Shown: positions 1 through 14,468, numbered from the stretch's first letter. The stretch: 64,000 nucleotides of DNA from Methanosarcina barkeri 3 (GCF_000970305.1 NZ_CP009517.1:496001-560000); one strand, 5' to 3'. Program-made: numbers and translations. Notes: generated from the sequence alone by a model not told the origin.

Positions 1-649
1 AAAAACCAAGGTGAATTGCAAGCGTCATATCTCCTGTTTCTTCATCTATGAGATAAATACCTCCGGCATTAATTTCATCAATTTGGAGGCAGGAATCCAG
101 TAGTTTCTCAAGAGTCTCGTTAAGGGAACTCGAAGTGCTTAATGCGATGCCCAGATCCCTCTGGATGTAGAGCAATTTTTCTTTTCTTTTCCGCTCAGTA
201 ACATCCATGACTATTCCCATAAGGTACTTTACAGTCCCATTTTCATCGGCTTCAATGAAAGTCCTTTCATCAACCCAGCGTATTTCGCCTGACTTAGTCA
301 GGATACGATACTCTTGAGAATAGTCCACGTAATTTTCTTCTATTCTTCTTGAGAGTTCTCTTTCAACCATTCCCAGGTCATCAGGGTGTATGATATTGCC
401 ATAAAGAAGTTTTCCGGATGTAAATTCTTCGGCAGTATACTCGAATTTCTTTATGTTTTCTGATACAAACTCAGCAGGCCAGTATTTCTCTGGTCTCCAG
501 AGGAAAACCGTGACAGGAACCTTATTTATCACCGAGATCAGCTCCTTTGCCATCTCCAGAGCATTGCATAAAGCCGTCTCACTTAAATATTTATATGATT
601 TTTGTCTACTGTCCCCGTTCTTAGCTGAATTCGAAACTGTTTTAGGCAT
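1..649 (-). CDS. PAS/GAF-domain sensor protein, N-terminal part (runs off the window)
   Basis: The reading frame is open from an ATG at 649 down to base 1 and continues beyond the window, so only about 216 N-terminal residues are visible. Residues about 30-150 form a PAS fold: the segment VFLWRPEKYWPAEFVSENI is a PAS core, followed by GIVMDVTERKRKEK, the usual PAC ending and linker. After it, from about residue 155, the sequence LGIALSTSSSLNETLEKLL begins a GAF domain. No signal peptide or membrane segment is present, so this is probably a cytoplasmic sensor. In Methanosarcina such PAS-GAF N-termini usually belong to hybrid or orphan histidine kinases; the kinase part would lie outside the window, so the output domain is unknown. 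Confidence 0.85.
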   Translation of the reverse strand, partial: MPKTVSNSAKNGDSRQKSYKYLSETALCNALEMAKELISVINKVPVTVFLWRPEKYWPAEFVSENIKKFEYTAEEFTSGKLLYGNIIHPDDLGMVERELSRRIEENYVDYSQEYRILTKSGEIRWVDERTFIEADENGTVKYLMGIVMDVTERKRKEKLLYIQRDLGIALSTSSSLNETLEKLLDSCLQIDEINAGGIYLIDEETGDMTLAIHLGF

Positions 650-1305
650 TTGGTTCTCCCGTGATCAAAATATCTTGCAGGAATTTCTGCAAAAATTTTG
701 AATATTTACATTTTTTGCTTCGCAAACATAAAAGTATACAATAAATAAAAAAGCTTGTGATTTTGTTTTCGGAGGGCATCAGAAGGTAGAGACTTGAAAA
801 TTAAAATTAATTTAAAGATCTGATTAGAAGAAGTGAATTAATAAAAGGAAATGTAAGAGAAAAGTATATATACTAAATTTAATTTAAGGGTTTTAAAGTA
901 TAACATTTAAATTCCAAGCCTCTCTATCTAACTGCCTGAAGCTCTTTGCATGTCTGTTTTCTTCAGGTATCTTTTCTTGATTTCCAGATCCGTGGATGAT
1001 AATTTGATAGCCACCTTACGGGTTTTTCAAAGCTGGTATCCTATTTTTTGGACTGCTGAACTTGCTGATGTTCGGGCATGGGGTAACATCCATGTGGAAG
1101 TTGAGAAGCGGACTATGAAATACTTCAAAAAAATGATATATGACTTCGTTACAGTGCAAAAACGTTCCATATTTGTTGAATATTTTTAATTGAGGAAATA
1201 CAGTAATCAAATTTGTATACACGTGGTAAAATGAAGTGAAAAACAAAACACGAGAATAAAGTACGGGGAACTAGGACCAGTGTCAAAAATATGATAAAAA
1301 AGAGC
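650..1305. other. Intergenic, no gene recognised
   Basis: AT-rich gap between the divergent edge of the PAS gene and the 3' end of the VOC gene. Short open frames exist on both strands (about 950-1246) but neither has a ribosome site, recognisable motif or coding-like composition, so I see no gene here. The promoter of the minus-strand PAS gene probably lies at about 700-760, where the minus strand carries TTTATTGTATAC. Confidence 0.5.
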
Positions 1306-1695
1306 TTACCTAACACTTGCGTCCGGCTGCATTACCCCAAATATGTTTTTTTCGGTGTCGAGGCAATAAGCGTACCAGCCGACCCCACGTATTGGTTTTT
1401 TTTCCATAGTGATTTTGCCACCATGTTTCTGTATCCTGTTCAGGTATTCATCGAGATTCGGGACACCTATTGTGCAGATATAGGTACTTATTGGCGTATC
1501 CGCTTTTGGTTCTTTTCCCTGCCTTTTCATAATGCCGCCGTCGATTCCCGGCTCGTCTCCCTTGCCGGTGATTACACTCCAGTATTCTACCGAACCTTCC
1601 GACCTCTCTATTTTCCAGCCGAACACATCCTGATAGAACTTCTTAGCTCGTGCAATATCTTCTGCATATATCTCAAAATGAATTACTCTTGGCGT
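1306..1695 (-). CDS. VOC-superfamily (glyoxalase/bleomycin-resistance-like) protein with an apparent ACG start
   Basis: About 129 residues with the vicinal-oxygen-chelate fold. The N-terminal strand VIHFEIYAEDIARAKKFYQ and the FGWKIE motif are typical, and the second half VPNLDEYLNRIQKHGGKI repeats the beta-alpha-beta unit. Family members in methanogens are single-domain proteins of about 115-130 residues and are poorly characterised. The start is unusual: the frame contains the complete first strand, but upstream of FGWK only a GTG at 1626 is a normal start, which would cut off the first beta-alpha unit. Where an ATG would be expected (before Pro-Arg-Val-Ile-His) there is ACG at 1693-1695, with an AGGGGG ribosome site about 8 bases upstream. 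I chose this position. The gene either uses a non-canonical ACG (or the preceding ATT), or has been silenced by a start-codon mutation. Confidence 0.7.
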   Translation of the reverse strand, partial: TPRVIHFEIYAEDIARAKKFYQDVFGWKIERSEGSVEYWSVITGKGDEPGIDGGIMKRQGKEPKADTPISTYICTIGVPNLDEYLNRIQKHGGKITMEKKPIRGVGWYAYCLDTEKNIFGVMQPDASVR

Positions 1696-1837
1696 GAGAA
1701 TTACCCCCTGCTTTAATTAGATAGTTTGGATGATGTTCATATATTAATTTAGGCTTTACTTTTTTAAACACTTGGTTTTCTGATCCGTAATGGTGTATAG
1801 AAGTCAGAAAACTATTAGGGGATTTTGAGGAGATTCT

Positions 1838-1925
1838 AAATTCTGAGAAGATCCCAGATTCTGAGAAAATTCTAGATTCTGAGAAAATTCTGGGGGGATT
1901 CTGGATTCTGAGAAGATTCTGATGA
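1838..1925. repeat. Short tandem repeat based on gattctgagaa
   Basis: Three to four imperfect copies of a unit about 18-20 bases long built on GATTCTGAGAAAATTCTA lie in the 1696-2047 gap. Nothing else is recognised in that gap. Confidence 0.6.
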
Positions 1926-2047
1926 AACTCGAAGACTCAGACCGGTTTTTCTTGTTGTCGATTTTTCGTTTTTAACATTCAAGTTATCTATCAAACCGAT
2001 AAGAAACTTGAACTTTTCAGTGGTTTTTGGTAAAGAATTAAAAAATA

Positions 2048-2269
2048 TTAAATATTCTTTTTAGCTAAAAACTGAGCAATATATTCAGCGAAAAGTTCCA
2101 TATCTTCAGTGCCTTTTTGAAGATTTTCGTAAAGCCTATCCAGCTCTACTTTTGCATACATATGTACGAGCACATTTCTGAACCCTGCAGCAGGTTCAAT
2201 TTTTCGAGCAAAGGTTTCAGTTATGTACTCTTCAAGTAGTTCAAGCTTGTCGATTATTTCCTGCCTCAT
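2048..2269 (-). CDS. Very short HepT-like HEPN (DUF86) protein
   Basis: 73 residues. It keeps the family signature Rx4HxY (AGFRNVLVHMY), the RNase active-site motif of HepT toxins and the segment modified by the MntA partner. The N-terminus (MRQEIIDKLELLEEYI) and the whole C-terminal part also fit HepT. However, the family is normally about 130-140 residues, and here the start jumps almost directly into the motif-bearing helix: the middle of the HEPN four-helix bundle is missing without a frame break. It overlaps the upstream nucleotidyltransferase gene by four bases (ATGA), the usual mntA-hepT arrangement. Either the toxin carries an in-frame internal deletion and is probably inactive, or it is a natural minimal form. 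Function is inferred from family and context. Confidence 0.75.
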   Translation of the reverse strand: MRQEIIDKLELLEEYITETFARKIEPAAGFRNVLVHMYAKVELDRLYENLQKGTEDMELFAEYIAQFLAKKNI

Positions 2270-2709
2270 TTCAACCTGCCTTTTGACATTCTTTCAATTG
2301 TTCTTTTCATGTGCCTTTCAATATAGTACTGCTCATCGTAATATCTTGACATTATCCGTGTCTCAAAACCCACTCTTTTCCTTTCATCGGACTTCAAAAT
2401 AATTCCATCGCGTATAATGTTGAATGACAGAAGCAGAGGGGAGTCATTGAGTACAACAAGGTCCACATTTTTTGTTTTCAGAAGGTCTCCCAGATCAACT
2501 ATTAATCTCAGCTGAAGGTTAAAAGCCTCTTTTCCGGTAAGTGAATCGTCAAGAAGGACAGCAATATCTATATCACTAAGGCAGCTTGCCTCTTCCCTGG
2601 CGATTGAACCGAACAGGTAAGCAACCACCACATGGGCTTCACCGGAGAAAAATTCTGTCAATTTTGTTTCAAGTTCTTTTAAACCTATTTTTACAATTTC
2701 TGACTGCAT
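2266..2709 (-). CDS. MntA-like nucleotidyltransferase (antitoxin of a HEPN/MNT pair)
   Basis: 147 residues, full length for the minimal nucleotidyltransferase family. The catalytic motif is intact: FGSIAREEASCLSDIDIAVLL carries the GS of the helix-turn and two Asp residues (DID) that bind the metal; a third acidic position is expected in the strand NVDLVVL. In studied systems MntA transfers AMP units from ATP onto the tyrosine of the HepT RxxxxHxY motif and so neutralises the HepT RNase. The hepT-like gene follows with a four-base overlap, so the two are translationally coupled. The C-terminus (RHMKRTIERMSKGRLK) is basic. The enzyme looks intact although its partner is shortened. Confidence 0.85.
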   Translation of the reverse strand: MQSEIVKIGLKELETKLTEFFSGEAHVVVAYLFGSIAREEASCLSDIDIAVLLDDSLTGKEAFNLQLRLIVDLGDLLKTKNVDLVVLNDSPLLLSFNIIRDGIILKSDERKRVGFETRIMSRYYDEQYYIERHMKRTIERMSKGRLK

Positions 2710-3221
2710 ATAATCAACCGTAAGGTGTTAACTCTCGTCTAATTGGTTTTATATCTTAATGCTTACTTTCGGTTTATAACTTATTTAGCTTTAGAACTTC
2801 TCTCTACAAGCTGTCTCAAGATCATGCAGATTGTACAGTAGCATAAAACATAAGCATAATACATAAGTACAAAACTCTTTTAACTTACTACTTTTCTTGC
2901 TGCTAATTGAGCAGTTTCTATCAAAATCCTTCTTGCTCTCTGTGATCTTCTCACTGTGATTCGTCATCGTACTGCTGCTTTACAAGAAGACTTCCTTTCT
3001 TATTGCATCTTAAGCTGGTTTTGCTAAGGGTTATGAATTAAAAAGAGTTTACGAGGTTTTTATCGAATCTTCTAGCTTTAGCTAGGATGCGGGAATGAGG
3101 TGAAGGAATGCAAGAGATTTGAGTAAAAGATTTGAGTAAAAAATAAAAAAGTAGAGAGTTTGAAGAGAGATTTAAGTAATAACTAAGAAATTAGAGAGTT
3201 TGAAGAGATAGTCGGAAAAAG

Positions 3222-3372
3222 AAAGGGATTATGGAGTAAGAAAGGGATTATGGAGTAAGAAAGGGATTATGGAGTAAGAAAGGGATTATGGAGTAAGAAA
3301 GGGATTATGGAGTAAGAAAGGGATTATGGAGTAAGAAAGGGATTATGGAGGAAGAAAGGAGTTATGGAGTAG
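3222..3372. repeat. 19-bp minisatellite, about 8 copies
   Basis: Unit AAAGGGATTATGGAGTAAG repeats head to tail from 3222; the first six copies are identical, the seventh has GGAGGAAG and the last partial copy AAAGGAGTTATGGAGTAG. It sits 60 bases beyond the 3' end of the ATPase gene. There are no unique spacers, so this is not a CRISPR. The rest of the 2710-3429 gap shows no gene. Confidence 0.95.
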
Positions 3373-3429
3373 ATGGACTACTTTTGTACTGTTAATTTCG
3401 TTGAAGTTCAGATATAAATGGCAGCTTCG

Positions 3430-4203
3430 TTAACTTGTTGCAGGTTCTAGTGGAATGATATAGGGATTCTTTCCATCATCTTTCACAAGAGCTCTTACAC
3501 CATAGACCTCTTTTATATTTTCTACGGTGAGAACTGAAGTCGGATTCCCAACGGCAAATATCTTGCCATCTTTCATCAGGATTATTCTATCGGCATATCT
3601 GGAAGCAAGATTCAGGTCATGAAGTGCCATTATTGCAGATATTCCTTTATTCTTCACTATGTTCTTTATAATTTCCATGACTTCGAGTTGATGCCTTATA
3701 TCAAGATTGCTGGTTGGCTCGTCAAGAAGAAGGATGATTGCTTTCTGCGCAAGTGCGCGTGCGATAAGTACTTTTTGTTGCTGACCTCCGCTGATTTCTT
3801 TAATATCTCTCATGGCAAACTCCATCATTCCAAGCAATTCCAGCACTTCCAGTACACAGTCCAGGTCTTCTTTACTGTTCTTCCATCCAAGATAAGGGCG
3901 TCTGCCCATAAGAACGGTATCTATAACAGAAGCAGGAAAAACACCTTCAAGATTCTGCGGCACATAGCCCATTTTTCTTGCAATCTCCATTCTGCTCATT
4001 TTATTGATATTGTGACCGTCCAGTAATATGCTTCCTCTTTTCGGGTTCAGTATATGGTCAATACACCGGATCAGGGTGGACTTTCCGGTACCGTTTGGAC
4101 CTACAATGCCAAGAACTTCTGCGCGGTTCAGTTCCATTGATACATTTTCAAGCACAGATATACTTTTATAAGCAAATTCAACATTGTTTACCTTCAGTTT
4201 CAC
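3430..4203 (-). CDS. ABC transporter ATP-binding protein, BtuD/FecE type
   Basis: 257 residues, a complete nucleotide-binding subunit. Walker A GPNGTGKST (about residue 35), Q-loop VPQN, ABC signature SGGQQQKV, Walker B IILLLDEPTS and the H-loop MALHDLNLA are all present. The closest family comparison is with ATPases of iron-siderophore, heme and corrinoid importers. It starts at GTG within the stop of the upstream permease gene (GTGA overlap), so it is coupled to it. It would power import through the BtuC-like permease. The substrate cannot be read from the ATPase; context gives corrinoid or metal chelate. It is the last gene of the block. Confidence 0.93.
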   Translation of the reverse strand: MKLKVNNVEFAYKSISVLENVSMELNRAEVLGIVGPNGTGKSTLIRCIDHILNPKRGSILLDGHNINKMSRMEIARKMGYVPQNLEGVFPASVIDTVLMGRRPYLGWKNSKEDLDCVLEVLELLGMMEFAMRDIKEISGGQQQKVLIARALAQKAIILLLDEPTSNLDIRHQLEVMEIIKNIVKNKGISAIMALHDLNLASRYADRIILMKDGKIFAVGNPTSVLTVENIKEVYGVRALVKDDGKNPYIIPLEPATS

Positions 4204-5276
4204 CAGTATTCCCTCTTTCTTTTCATGATCATATACAGAAAAAGCGGAGCGCCCATAAAGGCAGTTATTGCTCCGACAGGAAGAATTATTGGAGCCAGAA
4301 TTCTTCTTGCTACAAGGTCTGCGCTAGTCAGCAGTAACGCACCAAGAAGGCCGGATACCGGAAGAGCAAACCTGTTATCGCCTCCTACTGCGATTCGCGT
4401 GAAGTGCGGAGCAACCAGGCCTATGAATCCGATTGTTCCAGTAAAGCACACAATGCATGCAACAAGCAAAGTCGTGATTGACATTAAAATAATCCGGGTA
4501 TGTTTGACATTCACGCCCAGACTTGCTGCAGTTTCATCACCTGCAGCCATCAGGTTGAGATCAGGTGACTTTATTATGAGCAGAGGGAGGCAACATGTTA
4601 GTATGCCGAGTATGATAGTGACCTTAGGCCAGGAGGACCTATCAAGGTCACCTACTGTCCAGAATACAGCTTCCTTTACAGCCTCAGCTTCGCCAAAGTA
4701 TTGAAGGATTGTTGTCATTGCAGCAAACAAATACATCATCGCGATGCCAGCAAGAATCATGGTTTCAGGCGTTGCACCTTTTCGATTTGATAATCCAAGG
4801 ATTATAAAAGAACATAATAGTGCGAATAGGAAAGCGTTGCCTATTACAAGGTAATTTCCTCCAGCAACACTTATGCCTGTAAGGATTGCAAGAGACGCCC
4901 CAAAGCCGGCACCCGAAGATATACCGAGCGTATAGGGACTTGCAAGAGGGTTTTTGAGTACTGCCTGCGTTACACAGCCTGCAACCCCAAGCCCGAAACC
5001 AGCAACTATTCCCATAAATATGCGGGGAAGCCTGAGGTTCCATGTACATACATCGGCAAGCCAACCCGGCTCAAAATAAGCTGGAAATAACCTGTGCAGT
5101 ATTGAAGAGTAAATCTCCCATATAGATAGGTTTGCAGATCCCATAGAGGCGGATATGCCTGATACGAGAATTATTGAGAATAGGAGGAAGAAAATAAAGA
5201 AGACCTTTTTTCCGATAAGCTTATTGTACCGGTTTCTAACCTCTTCTTTAGTCAACGTATACTGTTTTGTCTCCAA
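4200..5276 (-). CDS. ABC transporter permease, FecCD/BtuC family
   Basis: 358 residues with about ten hydrophobic segments, the FecCD pattern. The N-terminal helix FFIFFLLFSIILVSGIS is followed by the family segments GVAGCVTQAVLKNPLASP (G-x-Q-x-x-x-NPLA), GTIGFIGLVAPHFTR (the coupling-helix region that touches the ATPase) and GAITAFMGAPLFLYM near the C-terminus. A homodimer of this subunit forms the membrane channel and receives substrate from the binding protein. The start is a TTG at 5274-5276, preceded by a GGATG-like site; no ATG lies nearby. It is followed with overlap by its ATPase. About 400 bases and a tandem repeat separate it from the methyltransferase gene upstream, so it may have its own promoter. 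Confidence 0.92.
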   Translation of the reverse strand: METKQYTLTKEEVRNRYNKLIGKKVFFIFFLLFSIILVSGISASMGSANLSIWEIYSSILHRLFPAYFEPGWLADVCTWNLRLPRIFMGIVAGFGLGVAGCVTQAVLKNPLASPYTLGISSGAGFGASLAILTGISVAGGNYLVIGNAFLFALLCSFIILGLSNRKGATPETMILAGIAMMYLFAAMTTILQYFGEAEAVKEAVFWTVGDLDRSSWPKVTIILGILTCCLPLLIIKSPDLNLMAAGDETAASLGVNVKHTRIILMSITTLLVACIVCFTGTIGFIGLVAPHFTRIAVGGDNRFALPVSGLLGALLLTSADLVARRILAPIILPVGAITAFMGAPLFLYMIMKRKREYW

Positions 5277-5683
5277 AGATACACATCCATTACATTAGGC
5301 AATTTATTGTTTTTCATTCAACTGGTTTTTATTCGGTAAGTGCTGCCTCAAACGTACTGATAATGGTATAATTATCTAATCTTCATGGATTGTCTAAATC
5401 TTCATGAATTGTCTAATCTTCATGAATTGTCTAATCTTCATGAAACCAGCATTAGAGCAGGAATTGTTAAGACTATCAATCCCACCTAAAACTGCACTTA
5501 CCGAGATTATTTTTCAGGCTTAGCATAGCTCGAAAACGTGCAGTATCGGTTTTTCTACCGAAATAATCGATCAAATGTCCTGAACTCAACTGCGGTACTC
5601 GCCATCAGTATGCCAACGTCCGTGAAAAGAAATACATATATCCAGAGTTCAACTGCACGAAACATCGAAGCAATTACCATGGC
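5277..5683. repeat. Gap in the importer cluster with an 18-bp tandem repeat
   Basis: About 400 bases between methyltransferase and permease genes. Between 5376 and 5441 the unit CTAATCTTCATGAATTGT occurs about 3.6 times. I find no gene on either strand; short plus-strand frames are opposite-strand readings of the methyltransferase end. Reading from the permease TTG outwards, the leader is AT-rich and could hold a promoter. Confidence 0.7.
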
Positions 5684-6310
5684 TTATTCTTTTTCTCCTT
5701 CTACAAGCATCATTTTATCGAACACTTTGACAGATACGTTCACAAGCCCTGCCGCTTCAAACATGCTGATTAGCTCTCCAGGGTCAGCTCCGTTGTAGAA
5801 AGGCAATTCTTTTCCTATCTCTCCTCCAAAGTGATGGTTTCCGGGATGAGAATGTCTGGCCGGAATGTCCGTCAGTACCTTACCCCCGGGCTTTGTCACT
5901 CTCGCCCACTCTTTAAATGCAGAAGCCGGGTTTGCAAGAGTCCAGATCAGGTGTCTACTGACAACCGCATCGAACTGCTCAGCTTCAAACGAGAGATTCT
6001 CGGCATCTTCCACAACAAAATTCACGGAACTTCCGGCTATCTCCATTTTCTTTTTTGCTTTTTCCAGTTTACTCTTTGCCCAGTCTGCACCTGTGACATC
6101 ATAACCCAGCTCAGCCAGCAGCAGAGCTAAAAACCCGGTGCCTGTTCCCATATCCAGAATTTTTAATTTCTGCCCGGTTCCAAGGAGCTGGGTGATCGCT
6201 TCTGTCCAGAGTTTCTTTTCTGCTTCAGAATGAACTCCATGTGCTGCAATGGCATCGTAATCGTGTTCTGCATTGTCCCACCATTCTCTAATTTGAGGCT
6301 TTACTTCCAT
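5684..6310 (-). CDS. Class I SAM-dependent methyltransferase
   Basis: 208 residues, UbiE/COQ5-like methyltransferase fold. Motif I is LDMGTGTGFLALLLAELG (about residue 50), the acidic residue after strand 2 is in TGADWAKSKL, motif II is VEDAENLSFEAEQFDAVVSRH, and the post-motif WARVTKPGGKVL is clear. No membrane segment. The start ATG at 6310 has a good site (AGGTGAG, six bases upstream). It lies between the binding-protein genes and the permease genes of a BtuCDF-type importer, all on the same strand. This neighbourhood suggests it methylates something linked to the imported ligand, or makes or alters a chelator, but the substrate is not visible and this is inference from position only. Confidence 0.88.
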   Translation of the reverse strand: MEVKPQIREWWDNAEHDYDAIAAHGVHSEAEKKLWTEAITQLLGTGQKLKILDMGTGTGFLALLLAELGYDVTGADWAKSKLEKAKKKMEIAGSSVNFVVEDAENLSFEAEQFDAVVSRHLIWTLANPASAFKEWARVTKPGGKVLTDIPARHSHPGNHHFGGEIGKELPFYNGADPGELISMFEAAGLVNVSVKVFDKMMLVEGEKE

Positions 6311-6491
6311 ATGTTCTCACCTACGTCCATTATAGTAAAAGTTGCAGTCATTACCTTTTTGTTATACAGGCCCTTTGCTTTTTTTTCAGGGTCTTTGTGC
6401 CCAACTTTTAACATTCACTTTCCACTTTTTCAGATCAATGTCAACTATGCCTTCCTGGTCAATTGTCACTTCAATAGGAAAATCACGATTG

Positions 6492-6767
6492 TCAGTATGT
6501 ATTCCATATACTGTCTTTCTGCGACACTGACCTCAACAGCATGATTTTTCCCCAGGTACCAAAGACTGTAGGAGTCATTTTTTCGATCTTAACCACCTTG
6601 CCACTTTTCATACTATGTCCAGAGCAAAGGTCACATGCTATGGAATCTCCTGGGGAAAAATTGTGCATGCAATTCTCAATCCAGATCTCATGGCCCCGTA
6701 CGATATAGAGGAGATTTTCCTCAAAAAAAGGTGAAAAGGCTTCCTTCTGGAAAGCTTTTTGAACCAT
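6492..6767 (-). CDS. Small conserved-looking protein with a CDLC pair, unknown function
   Basis: 91 residues, not recognised. It begins at ATG 6765-6767; the GGAG ribosome site is formed by the last Glu codon of the upstream binding-protein gene (CCG GAG TAA), with a seven-base spacer, which argues strongly for a real, translationally coupled gene. A longer in-frame reading into the upstream gene exists but is ruled out by this site. The sequence has an aromatic N-terminal half (SPFFEENLLYIVRGHEIWIENC), then SPGDSIACDLCSGHSM with a Cys-x-x-Cys pair and nearby His, and a basic strand KVVKIEKMTPTVFGTWGKI. No signal peptide or membrane helix, so cytoplasmic. The Cys/His cluster could bind metal. 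A role in handling the imported metal or cofactor is only a guess from context. Confidence 0.65.
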   Translation of the reverse strand: MVQKAFQKEAFSPFFEENLLYIVRGHEIWIENCMHNFSPGDSIACDLCSGHSMKSGKVVKIEKMTPTVFGTWGKIMLLRSVSQKDSIWNTY

Positions 6768-6771
6768 GTTA

Positions 6772-8160
6772 TTACTCCGGATAAGCCCAGGTTCCGGGAA
6801 CCTCAATGTTATGGAACTTTTTAAGATACTCTTTGTTAATTTCTTCAGGACTGATGTCCTTAAAAAGCTCAGGATGCATGCATTTGGCAAAGTAGATATG
6901 ACCTATTACCCACCTTGGTCCTCCGATAATATCCCTATCTATTAAGTAGACTCTATGATTTTTCACAGCATTTACCTTCTCGAACCCTGGTCTGTTTGAG
7001 AGGACTTTCGCCAGCAAAACTTTCATATCTTCTTCTGTTTTTCCAGGACCACTGTCAAATCCTTTCATTAAATCCGCAAACATGAAGTCAGGATTTTTCT
7101 CTATTACCCACTCAGGGTCCACTTCAACAGAATTGCCGGCTAATCCTGTGGCGATATTGCTCCCTCCTGTTCTTTCAGCTACCTGGCCTGCACTGGGATC
7201 GTTCGGGGTTATCAACTGCCATTTATCTTCTCCTTCTGACATATACTCATAATAGAAAGTTGGCATGTCATTGGTCTTCAGGTCTTTAGTACGTTCCTTT
7301 ACGAGATTTTCATAGCCCTGCATCCAGTTGAGGAGTTCATTTGCTTCTTTTTCTTTCCCCAGGACAAAACCCATAGTTGTTAAGTCAGAGTATATTGTTT
7401 TCTTGGAGGAAAGGCCCATTACAACAATAGAGGTATTAGGAAGATTGTCGGCTATTTGGTTGGCATTTTCTGCCTGCGAGAGAGGCAACAGGACTATATC
7501 GGGCTTGAGAGTCAGAACCATTTCGTAGTTAACCGATTTTCCGTGCACTCCAACCTCAGGAAGATCCAGAAGTCCAAACTCAGCCATACGCTCATGAAAA
7601 GCTTTGTCCACTCCTACAATCATGTCTCCTGTTCCGAGAGCAAGCAAAGTTTCCGTAGTACGATAGTCCGTGGGGACGATCCTTTTTACAGGCAGACTTA
7701 CATTTACCTGCCTGCCAGCTCCGTCAACAAGAGTAAGCTCTTTCGCTTTTCCAAGATTAATCAGCTCGGTTTTAGTTACATCAAGTATGTTGATATTGTT
7801 ATCACATGTTGCATCTGCAAATTGCGTTTGGTTTTTAGAGCCCAGAATGATGCTTTCAGTATACTCCACATCTTTCACATCTATGGTCTCGTCTCCATTC
7901 GAATTTCCAAGAACGCTGAGTGTGACATTCGATGCAGTTTCAGAGTCAGACAGATTCACAGAATCGGATACATTCGCAGAATTAGATACATTTGCAGAAT
8001 TGGATACATTTGCAGAATTAGATACATTCGCAGAAACAGATGAGTTTAAGGGGTCAGATGCGTTTATAGAGTCGGATGAATTTAGAGAATCCGATGCAAA
8101 TGCGGGTAATGTAAGAAGAATCAAACCAATGACCATTCCAACCAGGAATTCTATTTTCAT
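6772..8160 (-). CDS. Dockerin-fused periplasmic-binding protein of a BtuCDF/FepB-type importer
   Basis: 462 residues. A signal peptide (MKIEFLVGMVIGLILLTLPAFA) is followed by a Ser/Asn-rich stalk, residues about 23-75, built from six-residue units such as SANVSN and containing nine N-x-S/T sequons, so it is probably heavily N-glycosylated. Residues about 84-140 form a type I dockerin: two F-hand calcium loops, GNSNGDETIDVKD and DATCDNNINILD, each followed by a helix. From about residue 145 (LTLVDGAGRQVNV, KRIVPTDYRTTETLLALG) to the end is a TroA/BtuF-like binding domain for siderophores, heme or corrinoids. There is no lipobox or C-terminal anchor, so attachment would come from the dockerin. 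It starts five bases from the cohesin gene's stop; the AGAGGTGAT site overlaps that stop. The small CxxC gene follows directly. Confidence 0.9.
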   Translation of the reverse strand: MKIEFLVGMVIGLILLTLPAFASDSLNSSDSINASDPLNSSVSANVSNSANVSNSANVSNSANVSDSVNLSDSETASNVTLSVLGNSNGDETIDVKDVEYTESIILGSKNQTQFADATCDNNINILDVTKTELINLGKAKELTLVDGAGRQVNVSLPVKRIVPTDYRTTETLLALGTGDMIVGVDKAFHERMAEFGLLDLPEVGVHGKSVNYEMVLTLKPDIVLLPLSQAENANQIADNLPNTSIVVMGLSSKKTIYSDLTTMGFVLGKEKEANELLNWMQGYENLVKERTKDLKTNDMPTFYYEYMSEGEDKWQLITPNDPSAGQVAERTGGSNIATGLAGNSVEVDPEWVIEKNPDFMFADLMKGFDSGPGKTEEDMKVLLAKVLSNRPGFEKVNAVKNHRVYLIDRDIIGGPRWVIGHIYFAKCMHPELFKDISPEEINKEYLKKFHNIEVPGTWAYPE

Positions 8161-8164
8161 GTTA

Positions 8165-8800
8165 TCACCTCTGTTTACTCCTGGCCAGACAGGCTACTGC
8201 AGTCAAACCAATCAAAGAGAGCTCTACTTCGAATCCGGGAGTAGCTGCTTGTTTCGTAGCTGCTTCTTTTCTATTCTCTTCTTTTCCGTTCTCTTCTTTT
8301 CCATTCTCTTCTTTTCCGTCTTCTTTGGAATCTCCCCAGATGGTATCGATACGTTTAGCTTCGGTGTTTCCTAGCAGCCCGTTAGAAATTTTAAGGTCTC
8401 CTTCTCCGTCACTCATCACTTCAAACCCGATTTTGGCCAGTTCTCCAGATCCACTGACGCCGGAAACTCCTTCCAGATTAAAGATCACTCTTGCCGTCTT
8501 GCTGTCAACTGAGCTCCATTGTACCGGTATTTCCGTACTCCCAATACTACCGTTTTCGACGCTGACAATTTTCAGGACATCCGGGTTGAACACCAGATCA
8601 AACTGTCCTGCATCAAGATTTTCAACATTATCGATATTTACGGTTGCATAAACCGTATTTCCCTTTACCAGCTCAGTTGTGTTTAAGCTGACAGTCGTCT
8701 GCTGCGCCTGGCATGGAACTGCCGCAAACACCAGCAGTACAGCAAAACAAATCCCGAAGAGAATTTCTCTCCTCAACTCCGTCCATAAACTTTTTTTCAT
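8165..8800 (-). CDS. Cohesin-domain surface protein with PGF-CTERM anchor
   Basis: 211 residues. Signal peptide about 1-32 (FAVLLVFAAVPCQAQ). Residues about 34-150 match a cohesin: VSLNTTELVKGNTVYATVNI, then AGQFDLVFNPDVLKIVSVE and GELAKIGFEVMSDGEGDLKI, the jelly-roll strands that bind dockerins. Next comes a charged linker of repeated KEENG units (15-bp DNA repeats). The C-terminus, TPGFEVELSLIGLTAVACL plus a basic tail, is a PGF-CTERM signal: in archaea archaeosortase removes it and the protein becomes lipid-linked. It is the first gene of the cluster, with site GGGTGATC before ATG 8800, and is coupled to the dockerin-bearing binding protein downstream. The adjacency suggests that this protein is the membrane receptor that holds that binding protein. 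Confidence 0.9.
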   Translation of the reverse strand: MKKSLWTELRREILFGICFAVLLVFAAVPCQAQQTTVSLNTTELVKGNTVYATVNIDNVENLDAGQFDLVFNPDVLKIVSVENGSIGSTEIPVQWSSVDSKTARVIFNLEGVSGVSGSGELAKIGFEVMSDGEGDLKISNGLLGNTEAKRIDTIWGDSKEDGKEENGKEENGKEENRKEAATKQAATPGFEVELSLIGLTAVACLARSKQR

Positions 8801-9676
8801 CCGATCACCCTTGAGCCCTCTAAATATAGGCTATTTCAATATCGGTCAAAACTTTGCTGCTGGATAACAGATTTAATTATCTCGTGTGCTGGAATGGCAA
8901 AATCATAAAAATGCTGCTACGCCTAATAATGCCATAATAATGCTGCATAATAATGTTGCATAATAATGCTACCTATCACAGCTACGAATCTAATGCCGTT
9001 CCGGCACTTTGGAATACTAGCAGAGGAAGCTGCTTCTTTCCCATTATTTCAATAAAATTGCAGGTACTTTGTTTATATGTGCTCACACTAATTTTCAAAA
9101 AAGTAATAAATAAGTAAGATATTAATCTTTCTATTTAACATTATATTTATTTCAAATCCACTTTACTTAATATAAGACAATTATTTTTCCATAATTTATT
9201 ATTACTATTTTCCATTGAATTTGGAGTTTTATAAAGAGAGTTAAAGCAGAAAATTTATGTTCTGTTAATGGCAACCAGATACTTTTCACGATAAATGATA
9301 CTCTTTTTTACGACAAAGTATGTCTATCGAAAAAAAGCTGCAAATCAAGAGCCAGCAATACCCACAGGAAAATTCGACTCGTAGTGAACTCCAGCAAGCC
9401 ATCTAAAGTATGAAGATTTTGTAAATATTGAGCCTGTAAATCTAAGTTTTAAGACGTAAGAGACTACTAGGGAATTCCATAAATTTTTAAAAACTCCACA
9501 AATTTTAACTGTTCTGATTCTTTTTGAGGTCTTAAACAACTTTAAATTAAAATTAAGAATAAATTCATTTAATTTAATTTTTCATCTATCTACAAAATAT
9601 TTATAAGTCAAACGTACTATATACTATATTACATATTAAATTGTTATGAATTATGAAACTGGACAGGGAATAGAAT
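8801..9676. other. Long AT-rich gap, no gene recognised
   Basis: About 880 bases between the cohesin gene and the DUF3303 gene, divergently transcribed, so both promoters should lie here. Around 8930-8970 there are three or four copies of a CATAATAATG(C/T)TG-like short repeat. A small minus-strand frame at 9345-9539 has no ribosome site or recognisable motif. TATA-like sequence ATATACTATATTACATATT at 9616-9634 lies about 45 bases before the DUF3303 ATG. Confidence 0.5.
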
Positions 9677-9991
9677 ATGTTGTTGTTAGACATAACAACC
9701 TTTGACCCTAAGAATACTACAGAGCTATTTAAACGATGGGAAAAGGTAGAAAGTATGGATTTTCCAAAAGGGTTGAAGGTCATCAATCAGTGGTTTGATG
9801 CAGGAGGAGGGCGTGTGATAACTCTGTTTGACGTAGAAACTGTCAAAGACTATCTGGCTTATAATTTGCCGTTTACTGATTTATGCCAGATTGATGTTTT
9901 TCCCGTCATAGAAGCCGATGATGTTAAAAAGTCCATAATATATCGGATGGAAAAATTGAGTTACCTAGAAATTGGACAGTATAAAAATTGA
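9677..9991 (+). CDS. DUF3303 family protein
   Basis: 104 residues. The sequence follows the DUF3303 pattern: LLLDITTFDPKNTTELFKRW at the N-terminus, then PKGLKVINQWFDAGGGRVITLF, where a Trp and a GGGR turn precede a strand, then an acidic FPVIEADDVKKS segment. The family forms small ferredoxin-like alpha/beta barrel dimers and has no known function. It stands alone, with long non-coding stretches on both sides; TATA-like DNA lies about 45 bases upstream and there is no strong ribosome site, so it may be translated from a short leader. Confidence 0.85.
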   Translation: MLLLDITTFDPKNTTELFKRWEKVESMDFPKGLKVINQWFDAGGGRVITLFDVETVKDYLAYNLPFTDLCQIDVFPVIEADDVKKSIIYRMEKLSYLEIGQYKN

Positions 9992-10540
9992 CAATCCGGA
10001 GAAATTATTGCGAAGAATTTCATGATAATATGTTCTTAAAAATATACTGCCGGAAAAAAGTTGATAGGCAAGAAAAAGGGAACAGTTCAGGAAAGTGAAA
10101 CTTACTGACCTGTTGACTTGCCTTAAGAACCCTCTATAACCAAAAATATGCCACTACATTTGAGAAACCGAGGATGAGAGATATATTCCCCGGCTATCAA
10201 TCACCTTATCAGGTGATTCGTGTTATATGGATAAGAAGAATCTGAACAGAAGGTGAAGAAGCCTACTTTCAGGTCCTTTTATCCATTTTGAATGCTCTGT
10301 GCACAGTTACTGCACAGTATCGCTCGACGAATTTGCCAAAAAGCGTCGAGGATGACCGGAAAGGGATATAAGTAAATCCATTCTCGGATTTCTGTTGTAT
10401 TATTTCAGGCTATCTATATAAATTTACTGGATAGTGTCGCTCAGCGGCCTCTAAAGAGCCGTTGAAAAAACTGATGTCTAAAATCCGGGAACAATCCGCA
10501 GTTTAAATTATTATTCGGGTAAATTTTAAGGAGCAATTTT
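9992..10540. other. Gap with a strong hairpin and a gene remnant
   Basis: At 10199-10218 is a perfect 8-bp inverted repeat, AATCACCT-TATC-AGGTGATT, whose arms contain a ribosome site and its complement; a tiny frame (ATG at 10230, nine codons) follows. At 10440-10510 an open stretch ending LKKLMSKIREQSAV then stop reads like the C-terminal tail of a lost gene. A partial inverted repeat around CGACG...CGTCG occurs at 10324-10349. No complete gene seen. Confidence 0.4.
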
Positions 10541-10666
10541 ATGAGAATAGTCCTGGACGGCGACGGCGCAGAAATCAAAAAATTTGATAAAGCCATGAGA
10601 ACCTGCGGAAAGGTAGAATTCTCGGAGCTCTCAACGATAGCCTGGCAAAAAAGACCTGACAAATAG
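10541..10666 (+). CDS. Possible small protein of 41 residues
   Basis: ATG at 10541 is preceded by a good ribosome site (AAGGAGC, seven bases upstream). The product begins MRIVLDGDGAEIKKFDKAM and continues CGKVEFSELSTIAW to a basic end. Composition is protein-like (balanced charge, one Cys, amphipathic), unlike the surrounding AT-rich DNA. I do not recognise the family. It could be a real microprotein, or the 5' end of a decayed longer gene, as the sequence just upstream also carries a coding-like tail (LKKLMSKIREQSAV). Confidence 0.45.
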   Translation: MRIVLDGDGAEIKKFDKAMRTCGKVEFSELSTIAWQKRPDK

Positions 10667-11718
10667 ATGCGAATCCTTTCCAAAATATTCTCAACTTGCA
10701 ACTCCCGCCTACCCGCGCTTAAAGGCGTGAAATTTCAGACATCAGGAAATAATATTTATACACTTTTTCGTTTTTTACGTCATATTTCAGACTAATTATA
10801 TATGGGGCCATACTATATAACATTCTCTTTTTTTAATAAGATGTTATTTCATAATAATAGCAATTTTTATTACTTAATATGTAAAATAATTCGCTTTAAT
10901 GAGAAACTATTGTAAAAAATTATATATAATTAAATAAGCCTCACAAGTCTGAATTTCTCATTATTACTGCATAATTTAAGTTAATAAGTGCATGACTGCT
11001 TTAATAGAGACACAACCAAATTCGAGATAAGCAGCCTATGAGAATGGTATGAAATGCCTAGGATACCGGTCAACAATAGTTTTTTTGAAATTTATTTCTT
11101 CCAATTTCTATAAATGATATCTAGCCAATATTGAATAATATATAATAAAATTACAGACATATTTAAAATTTCATATTAAATATCTGTATATAATTAGCAC
11201 TTAATAGGAGAAAATCAGATAAATTTTCGAGATAATAGATAAATTTAAATTAATATCCTTATTACTATCTGATAGGTTAAGCATGATATAGGTAAGGTAC
11301 GGGCATGTATGAAAACAGCATCATGCTGACCTGTAAAAAAGTCCTGCCGTCTGCCCCTCCGGACTGCAGAAAAACTCTCTGAAACCCATTCAGGGAGCAA
11401 GGCTCAAAAAAAGCATGACAGGAGTCGATTTCCAGGCCCCTGTTTGAGTTCTTCTGGATTTTCTTCGCATACCTAGCGGATAGCATCGAAGGCGAACACC
11501 CGGAAGAACAATTGGATAATGGACCAGGAAATGAAGTGACTCCACAAAACAGAAAGACGCTGAAAGTATAAAACCTGCTGCCAATTTTCGAAAAAACATT
11601 AAGTTGATCCTTATTTGAGTAGCAGGCATTCAAAGAAAAAATTAGCCAACCATTCCCTCAGATGGGAATTTTAATCAAACTAAACTAAAAAAATTGATAA
11701 AACTTGGAGAATATATTT
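10667..11718. other. Long AT-rich gap with coding remnant at 11419-11571
   Basis: From 10770 to 11270 the DNA is very AT-rich without open frames. At 11419-11571 a plus-strand frame without a start codon reads QESISRPLFEFFWIF, then FAYLADSIEGEHPEEQ and ends QNRKTLKV; it has protein-like composition and is probably the remnant of a decayed gene. The last 60 bases lead into the DUF3344 gene. The hairpin-like GCCTACCCGCGCTTAAAGGC at 10707-10726 may be part of an old insertion-sequence end. Confidence 0.35.
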
Positions 11719-13227
11719 ATGTTTAAAAAGGAAACATTGATAAAAATAGGCGGCACAACGCCAATCGTCCCCCTGCTCCCCATAGGTGTACTGATACTAT
11801 TATTTACGATTGCACCTCTTGCGGCGGCAGACCCATACCTCGGAGGAATTTCCCTCATAACTGCGAACGGAACATCCGGGACAGTAACCGGAGACCTGTG
11901 GTTTGATGCTTATCCCGGGTTTGCCACATCCGCACAAAAAACGTTTACTCTACCTGCTTATACCGACATTGAGTGGGCCAGGCTCTACGTTGATGTTTAT
12001 GACGGACACATGGAAAACAACTACCGGGGCAATGTGACTATCGACATAGATGCAAACGGGGACAACACTTATGAGATCCAAAAGCAAGAGACCTTCGATA
12101 CTGCTTACTCGTTCCCAGGTTTAGGCGGGACTGGTCCAGTCTGGTTAAACGACCACCTGAACCGTGTGACAAGCGACTACCTGATGTGGTACGACCTCAC
12201 AGATGAGATCAGTGGGCAGACCGTGAATGTGCAGGCTGCAACCACAAAAATCGATCTTTCCTTTGACGGCCGGGTAAAGATGATTACCCTGGTGGTGGCA
12301 TACAACAAAGATCCCTGTGAAAACTGTAACGTAACTCATTACTGGGTGGCTCAAGGCCATGACACGGACTCATATGTGACAGATGAAGCAGGGCTTCCTT
12401 ACACCGGGAATACTACCTTCGATACGTCTGCCGTTTATACTCCCGGGGAAGCTAATCTTACTGTTCTCCCACTTTCGAGTTTTAACGGGAACTATACCTT
12501 CAATAGTGATACTGAGCAGTTGCCGTGGGACAATCCTCATCAGGGATCATACTTCCAGTGGCAGAGCTGGAACGTCACAGATTTAATTTCTGGAAACAGC
12601 TATATGACTTACGGCCGAAATGTGACTGATACTGATCGAAATTACAGCGGCTACTTCAAGGTCCCGCTTGCTTTGCTGACTGTAAAGGACGAATCCCTTA
12701 TCTATGACTTCAGCGATAACACGCTGGGGAGAGCAGGAATATGTTTATTTGCGTATAGAGACCAGGCTTCTGGCTTGCCACCAACTGTCAACAATGATCC
12801 GAATAACGAATTCTCAACGACAGAGTACAACAAGATTAAATATGACGACCAGAGTTTCCAGCCTGATGTGACTGCCACCGAAGGCAAACATGCAGCGCAC
12901 CGGTTTGTATTCAACGTAAGTTGTTGTTCCAATGTATCTAATTTAGATGCTATCAATGTAACTTGGAATGGTAAAGGTTATCATGACGATCCTGAAGCTG
13001 ATGATGGTGTTAACCTCTACATCTGGAATGGAACTGGTTATGAAACATTGGCCACGTCTAATGATGAAGACGAACATATCTTGACTGGAGAAAAAACAAC
13101 TAACCTTGGGAACTACATCAACAATGACAAAGTGATTGTGCTGGCGGAACAGAAGTATCCAGATGATGGTTTAGGTAGTCATTCAACTATTGAAACAGAT
13201 TATATAAAGCTGGTACTTAAATCATAA
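11719..13227 (+). CDS. Secreted DUF3344-domain surface protein
   Basis: 502 residues. I start at ATG 11719 because GGAGA lies eight bases upstream; the in-frame TTG at 11704 lies before that site. A signal peptide or N-terminal anchor (IVPLLPIGVLILLFTIAPLAAA) is followed by a DUF3344 domain, about residues 35-330: ARLYVDVYDGHMENNYRG, DIDANGD, WYDLTDEISG and the LVVAY strand. A second beta domain (about 370-500) ends IETDYIKLVLKS without a PGF-CTERM or transmembrane helix. The DUF3344 region is closely related to the third DUF3344 domain of the giant protein encoded downstream (long shared runs such as YDGHMENNYRGNV). It is presumably a cell-surface or S-layer-associated protein; no catalytic function is known for the family. 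Confidence 0.9.
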   Translation: MFKKETLIKIGGTTPIVPLLPIGVLILLFTIAPLAAADPYLGGISLITANGTSGTVTGDLWFDAYPGFATSAQKTFTLPAYTDIEWARLYVDVYDGHMENNYRGNVTIDIDANGDNTYEIQKQETFDTAYSFPGLGGTGPVWLNDHLNRVTSDYLMWYDLTDEISGQTVNVQAATTKIDLSFDGRVKMITLVVAYNKDPCENCNVTHYWVAQGHDTDSYVTDEAGLPYTGNTTFDTSAVYTPGEANLTVLPLSSFNGNYTFNSDTEQLPWDNPHQGSYFQWQSWNVTDLISGNSYMTYGRNVTDTDRNYSGYFKVPLALLTVKDESLIYDFSDNTLGRAGICLFAYRDQASGLPPTVNNDPNNEFSTTEYNKIKYDDQSFQPDVTATEGKHAAHRFVFNVSCCSNVSNLDAINVTWNGKGYHDDPEADDGVNLYIWNGTGYETLATSNDEDEHILTGEKTTNLGNYINNDKVIVLAEQKYPDDGLGSHSTIETDYIKLVLKS

Positions 13228-13301
13228 ACATAAATTTTGAGATGAAGAATTAACATACAATCATCCAGGTCTAAAAAATTCACAAGTGATTTATTGAAAT
13301 T

Positions 13302-13328
13302 AGGGTTTTCTAAAACCTCTTTTTTTCA
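13302..13328 (+). terminator. Hairpin plus T-run downstream of the DUF3344 gene
   Basis: AGGGTTTTCTAAAACCT forms a stem (AGGTTTT with AAAACCT, one bulged G) directly followed by CTTTTTTTC and a second T-rich run to 13340. It lies about 75 bases after the stop at 13227. Confidence 0.6.
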
Positions 13329-14468
13329 TTTTTTTATTTTATATTTTTGCCTTAATTTGACATTATAAATTCAATTTAAGTGAGAAGCCTCAATTTTTCG
13401 TCAAAAATCAATTGAGAGTATTTATAAATTTCATCAAATTTCCTCTAATTTTCCAGCTTTACAATCACTATAAGTTAAATGAGTAGAAATTTTTGTCCCA
13501 TTTTGGCACTTCTGACATCGACTTTTTATATAGCATCTGTATTTTAGCCGTTAATTCATGCTATCTGTCAAATTCTACGCCAAAACTTTGATCAAAAATG
13601 ATGAAAATAGCCATCAAGAGAAAGAGAATCATCTGTCAAATTAAATCATAAAAATGGGCAAAAATTTGTTGAAATAATATTACTTATCATTCCAACGGAT
13701 ATGAAAACAATCTTCCCACATAAAAATCAAACTGTCAAACTTAGGCTTTTATGTACAAAATCAACGTGTGATTCCATATTTTTGCAATGATTGTACGATT
13801 TTCGGAATTGAATATTCAACAAATATATTTGGGTAAGTTTCAATTTTCGTATATTTGCAGATAAATAGTCATATGATTAGTCAATGAAATCAGAATGAGA
13901 CAATAAAATAAGGAATTCTATCCCTATATAGCTTGTTTAGTCACTAAATTGAAAATTCCTTATTAGATACCTGAAATCTTGTGCAAAAAGAAAGTTTTCT
14001 TTTTATTTTCCTTCATTCAGATGGAATTTTTATCATCTCACAGGAACTACAAGGTTGTAAGATAATATATTTGTATAAGATATGTTAATAATTTTTATAT
14101 TTGTGCTATTTATGATGAATATAAACTAATATGTTTCTTATTTTTTCAAATAACTTAAATAGTAAATAATAATTCTTTATTGAAGTTGTTTAAATTTAAT
14201 AGACAAAGCTCTTAAAAAACAAAATTTGCAGATTAATGCAATATTTGAAAGTCGGGCTTTATCTACGAAAGACGCTCACTAGGCAGACTAAAATTTGTAA
14301 ATTTAAGGAAAAAGGCTTTCTATCTTTTTTTGGTGGAGTTTCTCCCTCATAATTTGAAGATGTACTGAAAAAGTCGTTATTCAACCCGAAGAAATCCGTT
14401 AGGCCTGAAAAACTGAAACACAATTTCAGGAGAGTCGTTCAATTCTCTACAAAAGAGGTGAATAAAAG
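13329..14468. other. Long non-coding region upstream of the giant surface-protein gene
   Basis: About 1.1 kb with no supported gene on either strand. It is rich in short poly-A/T runs and TATA-like elements (for example around 14060-14110), as expected for a promoter region with a long leader. The ribosome site GAGGTGA at 14455-14461 belongs to the following gene. Confidence 0.5.

Follow-up and report, generated by a model that had tools for sequence, protein, structure and literature searches.

A cohesin paired with a dockerin-bearing substrate-binding protein: predicted tethering at an ABC importer locus of Methanosarcina

What non-cellulosomal cohesins and dockerins do has been an open question since their discovery in Archaeoglobus. 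The cohesin of A. fulgidus (2xdh), which occurs together with dockerins, has an archaeal cohesin fold, and in clostridial cellulosomes type I recognition modules let an anchored cohesin hold dockerin-bearing enzymes, the scaffoldins being attached through SLH domains or sortase. Cohesin and dockerin domains were counted by Timmers et al. (2017). For ANME archaea, dockerin-bearing substrate-binding proteins (SBPs) of the TroA and NikA/OppA types, cohesins and scaffoldin-like proteins were described in an account that lists the domains and leaves their partners open (Chadwick et al. 2022, PMC9012536). In the archaeal class III SBPs of TIGR04281, the protein is held by a PGF-CTERM anchor of its own.

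Here we describe a locus in a 64,000-nucleotide stretch of a Methanosarcina genome (the window). Its first two genes encode COH, a cohesin with a predicted PGF-CTERM lipid anchor, and DBP, an SBP that carries a dockerin. COH has the cohesin fold of the Archaeoglobus protein, but its predicted partner is an SBP of the same operon and COH bears its own anchor. As in cellulosomes, type I modules would let an anchored cohesin hold dockerin cargo; here, however, the cargo is a nutrient-binding protein instead of an enzyme, there is one cohesin, and the predicted PGF-CTERM lipid anchor stands where clostridial scaffoldins use SLH or sortase. DBP would be held by PGF-CTERM like the TIGR04281 proteins, with the anchor moved onto a separate cohesin (DBP reaches 52.5 bits against TIGR04281, cut-off 325). 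ANME genomes likewise hold TroA-type SBPs with dockerins alongside cohesins, whereas an operon-paired PGF-CTERM cohesin, a minimal 1:1 system in Methanosarcina and a contact-residue correlation, all seen here, do not appear in the accessible part of PMC9012536. Neither the operon-paired cohesin anchor nor the residue correlation was found described in the full-text literature searched, which excludes most subscription papers. The features of the locus are as follows, with the basis of each in brackets.

8165..8800, minus strand: COH, secreted single-cohesin protein of 211 aa, PGF-CTERM anchored by prediction (PF00963, PF18204; fold search of the AF2 model; dN/dS)
8381..8695, minus strand: cohesin domain of COH, residues 36-140 (Pfam; AF2 model all-beta, residues 34-157)
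8243..8335, minus strand: charged Lys/Glu/Asn-rich stalk between cohesin and anchor (sequence)
8174..8242, minus strand: PGF-CTERM sorting/anchor segment and basic tail (PF18204 above cut-off; ArtA in genome)
6772..8160, minus strand: DBP, dockerin and BtuF/FhuD-type substrate-binding protein of 462 aa (PF01497, 92.7 bits; dN/dS)
7921..8091, minus strand: Ser/Asn-rich N-terminal tail of DBP, nine N-x-S/T sequons, variable length (sequence)
7741..7920, minus strand: type I dockerin of DBP with two F-hand loops (alignment; orthologues pass PF00404; PDB dockerins matched by profile)
7870..7905, minus strand: calcium loop 1 of DBP, NSNGDETIDVKD, recognition pair V10-K11 (alignment)
7780..7815, minus strand: calcium loop 2 of DBP, DATCDNNINILD, recognition pair I10-L11 (alignment)
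6934..7680, minus strand: class III substrate-binding domain of DBP, Peripla_BP_2 (Pfam; nearest solved structure 4mo9, E = 1.2e-21)
6304..6767, minus strand: remnant of a DUF4198 gene that lacks its middle and has a broken frame (tblastn pieces)
5684..6310, minus strand: class I SAM methyltransferase, intact (PF08241, 87.4 bits; dN/dS)
5561..5680, minus strand: remnant of a Gate-domain permease, first 40 residues (comparison with full-length relatives)
4200..5276, minus strand: FecCD-family permease (PF01032, 294 bits)
3430..4203, minus strand: ABC ATPase of FecE/BtuD type (PF00005, 119 bits)

Since all genes of the locus lie on the minus strand, COH is the first gene, and DBP comes next. In the window DBP starts 4 bp past the COH stop; 6 of 9 relatives show a 4-bp overlap of the two genes, whose reading frames differ from each other in the window and in L032-L036. 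A FecCD permease, an ABC ATPase and a Peripla_BP_2 SBP stand together in one locus, as in class II ABC importers of the FecCD type. The preliminary description had BtuC- and BtuD-like genes following DBP; the permease and the ATPase are indeed there, and the methyltransferase and two remnants in between had been overlooked. Upstream of the permease gene, this strain has about 400 bp of degraded sequence, which makes a single transcript uncertain. No riboswitch or other RNA was found with Rfam in positions 1-14000. Short tandem repeats (ccataatccctttcttact) lie at 3200-3360, downstream of the ATPase gene.

COH had been proposed to be a cohesin with a PGF-CTERM anchor, and both profiles agreed, with 47.2 bits for PF00963 (E = 3.3e-12, cut-off 24.1) and 21.8 bits for PF18204 (cut-off 18.8); the NCBIfam PGF model TIGR04126 gave 18.8 bits, under its cut-off of 24.5. 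The C-terminus has the PGF motif, hydrophobic segment and basic tail of an archaeosortase A substrate, and the archaeosortase ArtA is encoded in the same genome (TIGR04125, 256.9 bits). Two COH relatives have SGF in place of PGF, and the length of the stalk varies among strains. AF2 models were made from 6-row alignments of the window and related loci. The model of COH was modest (pLDDT 57) and all-beta over residues 34-157, and its best fold matches were cohesins (Foldseek probability 1.00), including those of the clostridial complexes 1ohz and 2ccl, and 2xdh of A. fulgidus, the third-best structural match.

The window copy of DBP stays under the cut-off of Dockerin_1 (PF00404; 11.1 bits, cut-off 22.9). 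The orthologues in L034 and L097 exceed it with 23.9 and 27.4 bits, and the calcium-ligand positions are conserved: N1, N3, D5, I8, D9 and D12 of loop 1 and D1, D5 and D12 of loop 2 are kept in 13 of 13 aligned relatives. On these two grounds the dockerin, though degenerate by Pfam, is to be taken as real from sequence comparison, its orthologous group reaching PF00404. The alignment gives two F-hand calcium loops of 12 residues that retain their ligands, as in type I dockerins, and a profile of the region matched the solved dockerins 5lxv and 2vn5 (E about 0.003-0.006). The substrate-binding domain matched Peripla_BP_2 (PF01497) with 92.7 bits; the AF2 model of DBP had a pLDDT of 33. DBP has a cleavable signal peptide, and neither a lipobox nor a C-terminal hydrophobic segment was present when these were looked for. 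The earlier view of a binding protein with an N-terminal dockerin and no anchor of its own thus stood.

Taken together, these features make it probable that a membrane-anchored COH clasps the soluble DBP by its dockerin and keeps the substrate-binding domain in the vicinity of the FecCD/ATPase importer. COH would be exported; archaeosortase A would cleave and lipidate its C-terminus, or this end would stay in the membrane, with the charged stalk displaying the cohesin above it. DBP would be exported as a soluble protein without its own anchor; its dockerin would fold around two calcium ions and clasp the cohesin via V-K and I-L of the F-hand loops, and this clasp would keep the substrate-binding domain close to the importer. 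We infer the binding of DBP by COH, its calcium dependence and the delivery to the permease of the locus; the tethering is a prediction that the sequences support well. Cohesin-dockerin contacts of known systems are usually very tight, so that the idea of an exchangeable hold on DBP is unsupported speculation.

The gene order of COH and DBP was searched for in methanogen genomes, as had been named beforehand as a test, and the order is conserved. Among 31 Methanosarcina genomes, the 9 with a COH orthologue are also the 9 with a DBP orthologue, the two genes being adjacent in all of them, and the other 22 have neither; with about 16 direct pairs in other members of the order, the proposal of a dedicated pairing was borne out. 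In the genome of the window, COH is the sole cohesin and DBP the best and only full-length dockerin (E = 0.0137), the second dockerin match being a half-match (E 0.37). With a single cohesin, a single full-length dockerin and no multi-cohesin scaffoldin, this genome does not encode a cellulosome. Of 13 paralogous class III SBPs found in the same genome, 12 have a putative anchor, 10 of them a lipobox-like motif and 2 an uncleaved N-terminal helix. The sole one with neither, L196 (C1:4261794-4263086), has a signal peptide and, ahead of Peripla_BP_2, one EF-hand-like segment (GDLDNDNMISRAELSDAI). In other Methanosarcina genomes (L098-L102), a protein of 1100-1500 residues with a C-terminal dockerin is followed by one or two small cohesin genes; this pairing is a separate cohesin-dockerin system.

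A dockerin on an SBP is not in itself a sign of cohesin tethering. Anchorless dockerin-SBPs with signal peptides and no visible anchor, as read from the loci, occur in 14 cohesin-free genomes (12 complete genomes of f6, a different family of the class, plus G217 and G504), and dockerin-SBPs with a transmembrane or lipobox-type anchor occur in three Methanosarcina genomes (G163, G172 and G161). No credible cohesin was found in any of these with Pfam and a tailored model of 35 archaeal cohesin sequences, for which positive controls score about 1e-40. The dockerin module can therefore work without a cohesin, and these genomes rule out the general rule that any dockerin on an SBP means tethering. 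In a dockerin-SBP family without a cohesin (L104-L107, L147 and L186), the N-terminal membrane helix stays uncleaved and the genes adjoin FecCD/FecE and exporter-type ABC genes. The dockerin-like domain of DBP could accordingly be a structural calcium module or have a different receptor, for instance the permease or the S-layer, with the cohesin serving something else; such modules are common in cohesin-free genomes and on self-anchored SBPs, where most retain the calcium ligands. Against this we set that the genome of the window offers COH no other full-length dockerin, that the pairing holds in 9 of 9 genomes, that cohesin and dockerin remain alike where the SBP domain has diverged, and that the recognition positions, as shown below, vary with the presence of a cohesin. 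We therefore consider this explanation unlikely.

We take the Ser-Thr recognition pair of clostridial dockerins to be positions 10 and 11 of the 12-residue loop (D-x-N-x-D-G-x-I-N-S-T-D). One such pair per F-hand (Ser11/Thr12 and Ser45/Thr46) forms the recognition code there, and its mutation weakens binding (PMC5772552). Among dockerins from genomes with a cohesin, loop 1 had M, V, I or L at position 10 in 109 of 116 (82/89 in the order and 27/27 in other families, the latter including L222 of genome G321, where the tailored model gives just one cohesin match, a partial one). The position was hydrophobic in one of 40 dockerins of cohesin-free genomes, the others being polar or charged, and in none of the six on self-anchored SBPs. 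On a tree of the SBP domain there were 13-14 independent contrasts, of which about 12.4 agreed on average and none opposed (p about 0.0005, with a span of 0.0002-0.002), a result of somewhat lower weight given a quick tree with long branches and a position picked after inspection of the alignment; for loop 2, 11 contrasts agreed and none opposed. Three Methanosarcina genomes contain both kinds, with M-K or V-K in the anchorless dockerins paired with COH and Q-Q or Q-K in the membrane-anchored ones. The dockerin of the window, with V-K in loop 1 and I-L in loop 2, is by these residues of the cohesin type. Whether such a hydrophobic code separates cohesin-bound dockerins from SBP modules that work without cohesin is, in our view, evenly balanced. 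We also compared cohesin class with position 11 (K or Q), where K is found in most pairs with close COHs and in none with distant COHs; this trend has exceptions (L128, L131 and L134), is confounded by descent and was not retained.

In related families, COH-type PGF-CTERM genes lie directly upstream of dockerin-SBPs, sometimes at the head of tandem arrays. Counting the DBPs of the order with an intact N-terminus and a signal peptide, 24 of 81 lie directly behind a cohesin (25 with L137, added by eye) and 17 directly behind another DBP. For the 35 with neither directly ahead, tethering would have to involve a cohesin gene elsewhere in the genome. None of six self-anchored DBPs lies directly behind a cohesin or DBP (one is at a contig edge). 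In the closest distant pairs, identity to the window proteins is 25-33% for the SBP domain, 58-72% for COH and 52-65% for the dockerin, and in a lower pair, L136, COH and dockerin reach 43% and 50%. At equal SBP distance, mean identity is 37-38% for dockerins from cohesin-free genomes or on self-anchored SBPs. By these identities, cohesin and dockerin form a conserved unit beside a changing ligand-binding domain. In an ANME-like genome, L144:4168-7747 holds an orthologous DBP-DUF4198-methyltransferase-Gate cluster (58-73% identity) with an M-Q/M-Q dockerin and without an adjacent cohesin; in Methanosarcina, either the cohesin may have been added to this cluster in a separate event or the dockerin may have been swapped.

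The delivery to the permease of the locus is less firm than the tethering, because the FecE gene is not nearby in 2 of the 9 orthologous loci. COH could instead bind DBP in the S-layer or outside the cell as a scavenger or signalling protein that does not feed the neighbouring importer, and in related families the permeases beside cohesin-DBP pairs are varied or absent. On the other hand, FecCD and FecE neighbours are kept in most of the Methanosarcina loci examined, and we give a scavenging or signalling role very little credence.

The ligand of DBP is probably a metal chelate. The locus had been called a metal-chelate/corrinoid importer; the corrinoid part was not supported, as DBP, permease and ATPase reach no equivalog cut-off for BtuF, BtuC or BtuD in NCBIfam, and the DUF4198 gene of the operon points as much to nickel. 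A protein of the DUF4198 type has nanomolar affinity for nickel (PMC12537917), so that nickel and cobalt chelates are no less likely than iron or a corrinoid. In the operon itself, no signal peptide is visible in the DUF4198 gene, which is broken in the window. Elsewhere, genes of 1266-1342 codons that resemble CobN chelatases by eye lie beside tandem dockerin-SBPs (L203:11810-15610, L204:11576-15376 and L131:2005-6033) and may be relevant to the ligand.

The operon is shrinking in the lineage of the window, where DUF4198 (6767-6304) and Gate (5680-5561) are remnants with intact orthologues elsewhere. DUF4198 is intact in six relatives (L034-L036 and L095-L097; 96.4 bits against PF10670 in L034), and the Gate permease is full-length in at least two (L035 and L096; 47.6 bits against PF07670 in L096). 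These two pseudogenes, together with the lower Pfam dockerin score in this lineage, would fit a COH-DBP pair that is itself decaying or inactive, a relic of the larger operon. However, COH, DBP, methyltransferase, permease and ATPase are intact, and dN/dS values of 0.04-0.24 indicate purifying selection on all five (COH about 0.18-0.24, DBP 0.14-0.18, methyltransferase 0.04-0.11; COH and DBP 0.17-0.19 against the close relative L032). The identical intact gene set is moreover present in three close lineages (window, L032 and L033), which leaves decay of the pair highly unlikely.

Genomes of the related families appear to be ANME-like, with many cohesins and multi-cohesin scaffoldins as in published ANME genomes. 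One of them has a three-tier operon (L182:5214-9239) of a PGF-CTERM cohesin, a scaffoldin with an N-terminal dockerin and 3-4 cohesins, and an OppA-type SBP (SBP_bac_5) with a dockerin; similar parts occur in L180, L139, L178 and L211. This resembles the hierarchy of anchoring scaffoldin, primary scaffoldin and cargo, here for nutrient binding. COH and DBP may be the minimal version of a general archaeal uptake scaffold in which anchored cohesins hold sets of dockerin-SBPs, a proposal about as probable as its opposite. We are equally divided on whether some lineages use an intermediate dockerin/multi-cohesin scaffoldin so that several SBPs share one anchor, and on whether the scaffold spans SBPs of two unrelated folds, Peripla_BP_2 and SBP_bac_5. 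If the tethering of DBP by COH is true, a protein clasp would replace the lipid anchor in ABC uptake, and the residue at position 10 would tell tethered dockerins from other dockerin-like modules by sequence. With exactly one cohesin and one dockerin sharing an operon in a genetically tractable genus, the function of non-cellulosomal cohesins becomes testable.
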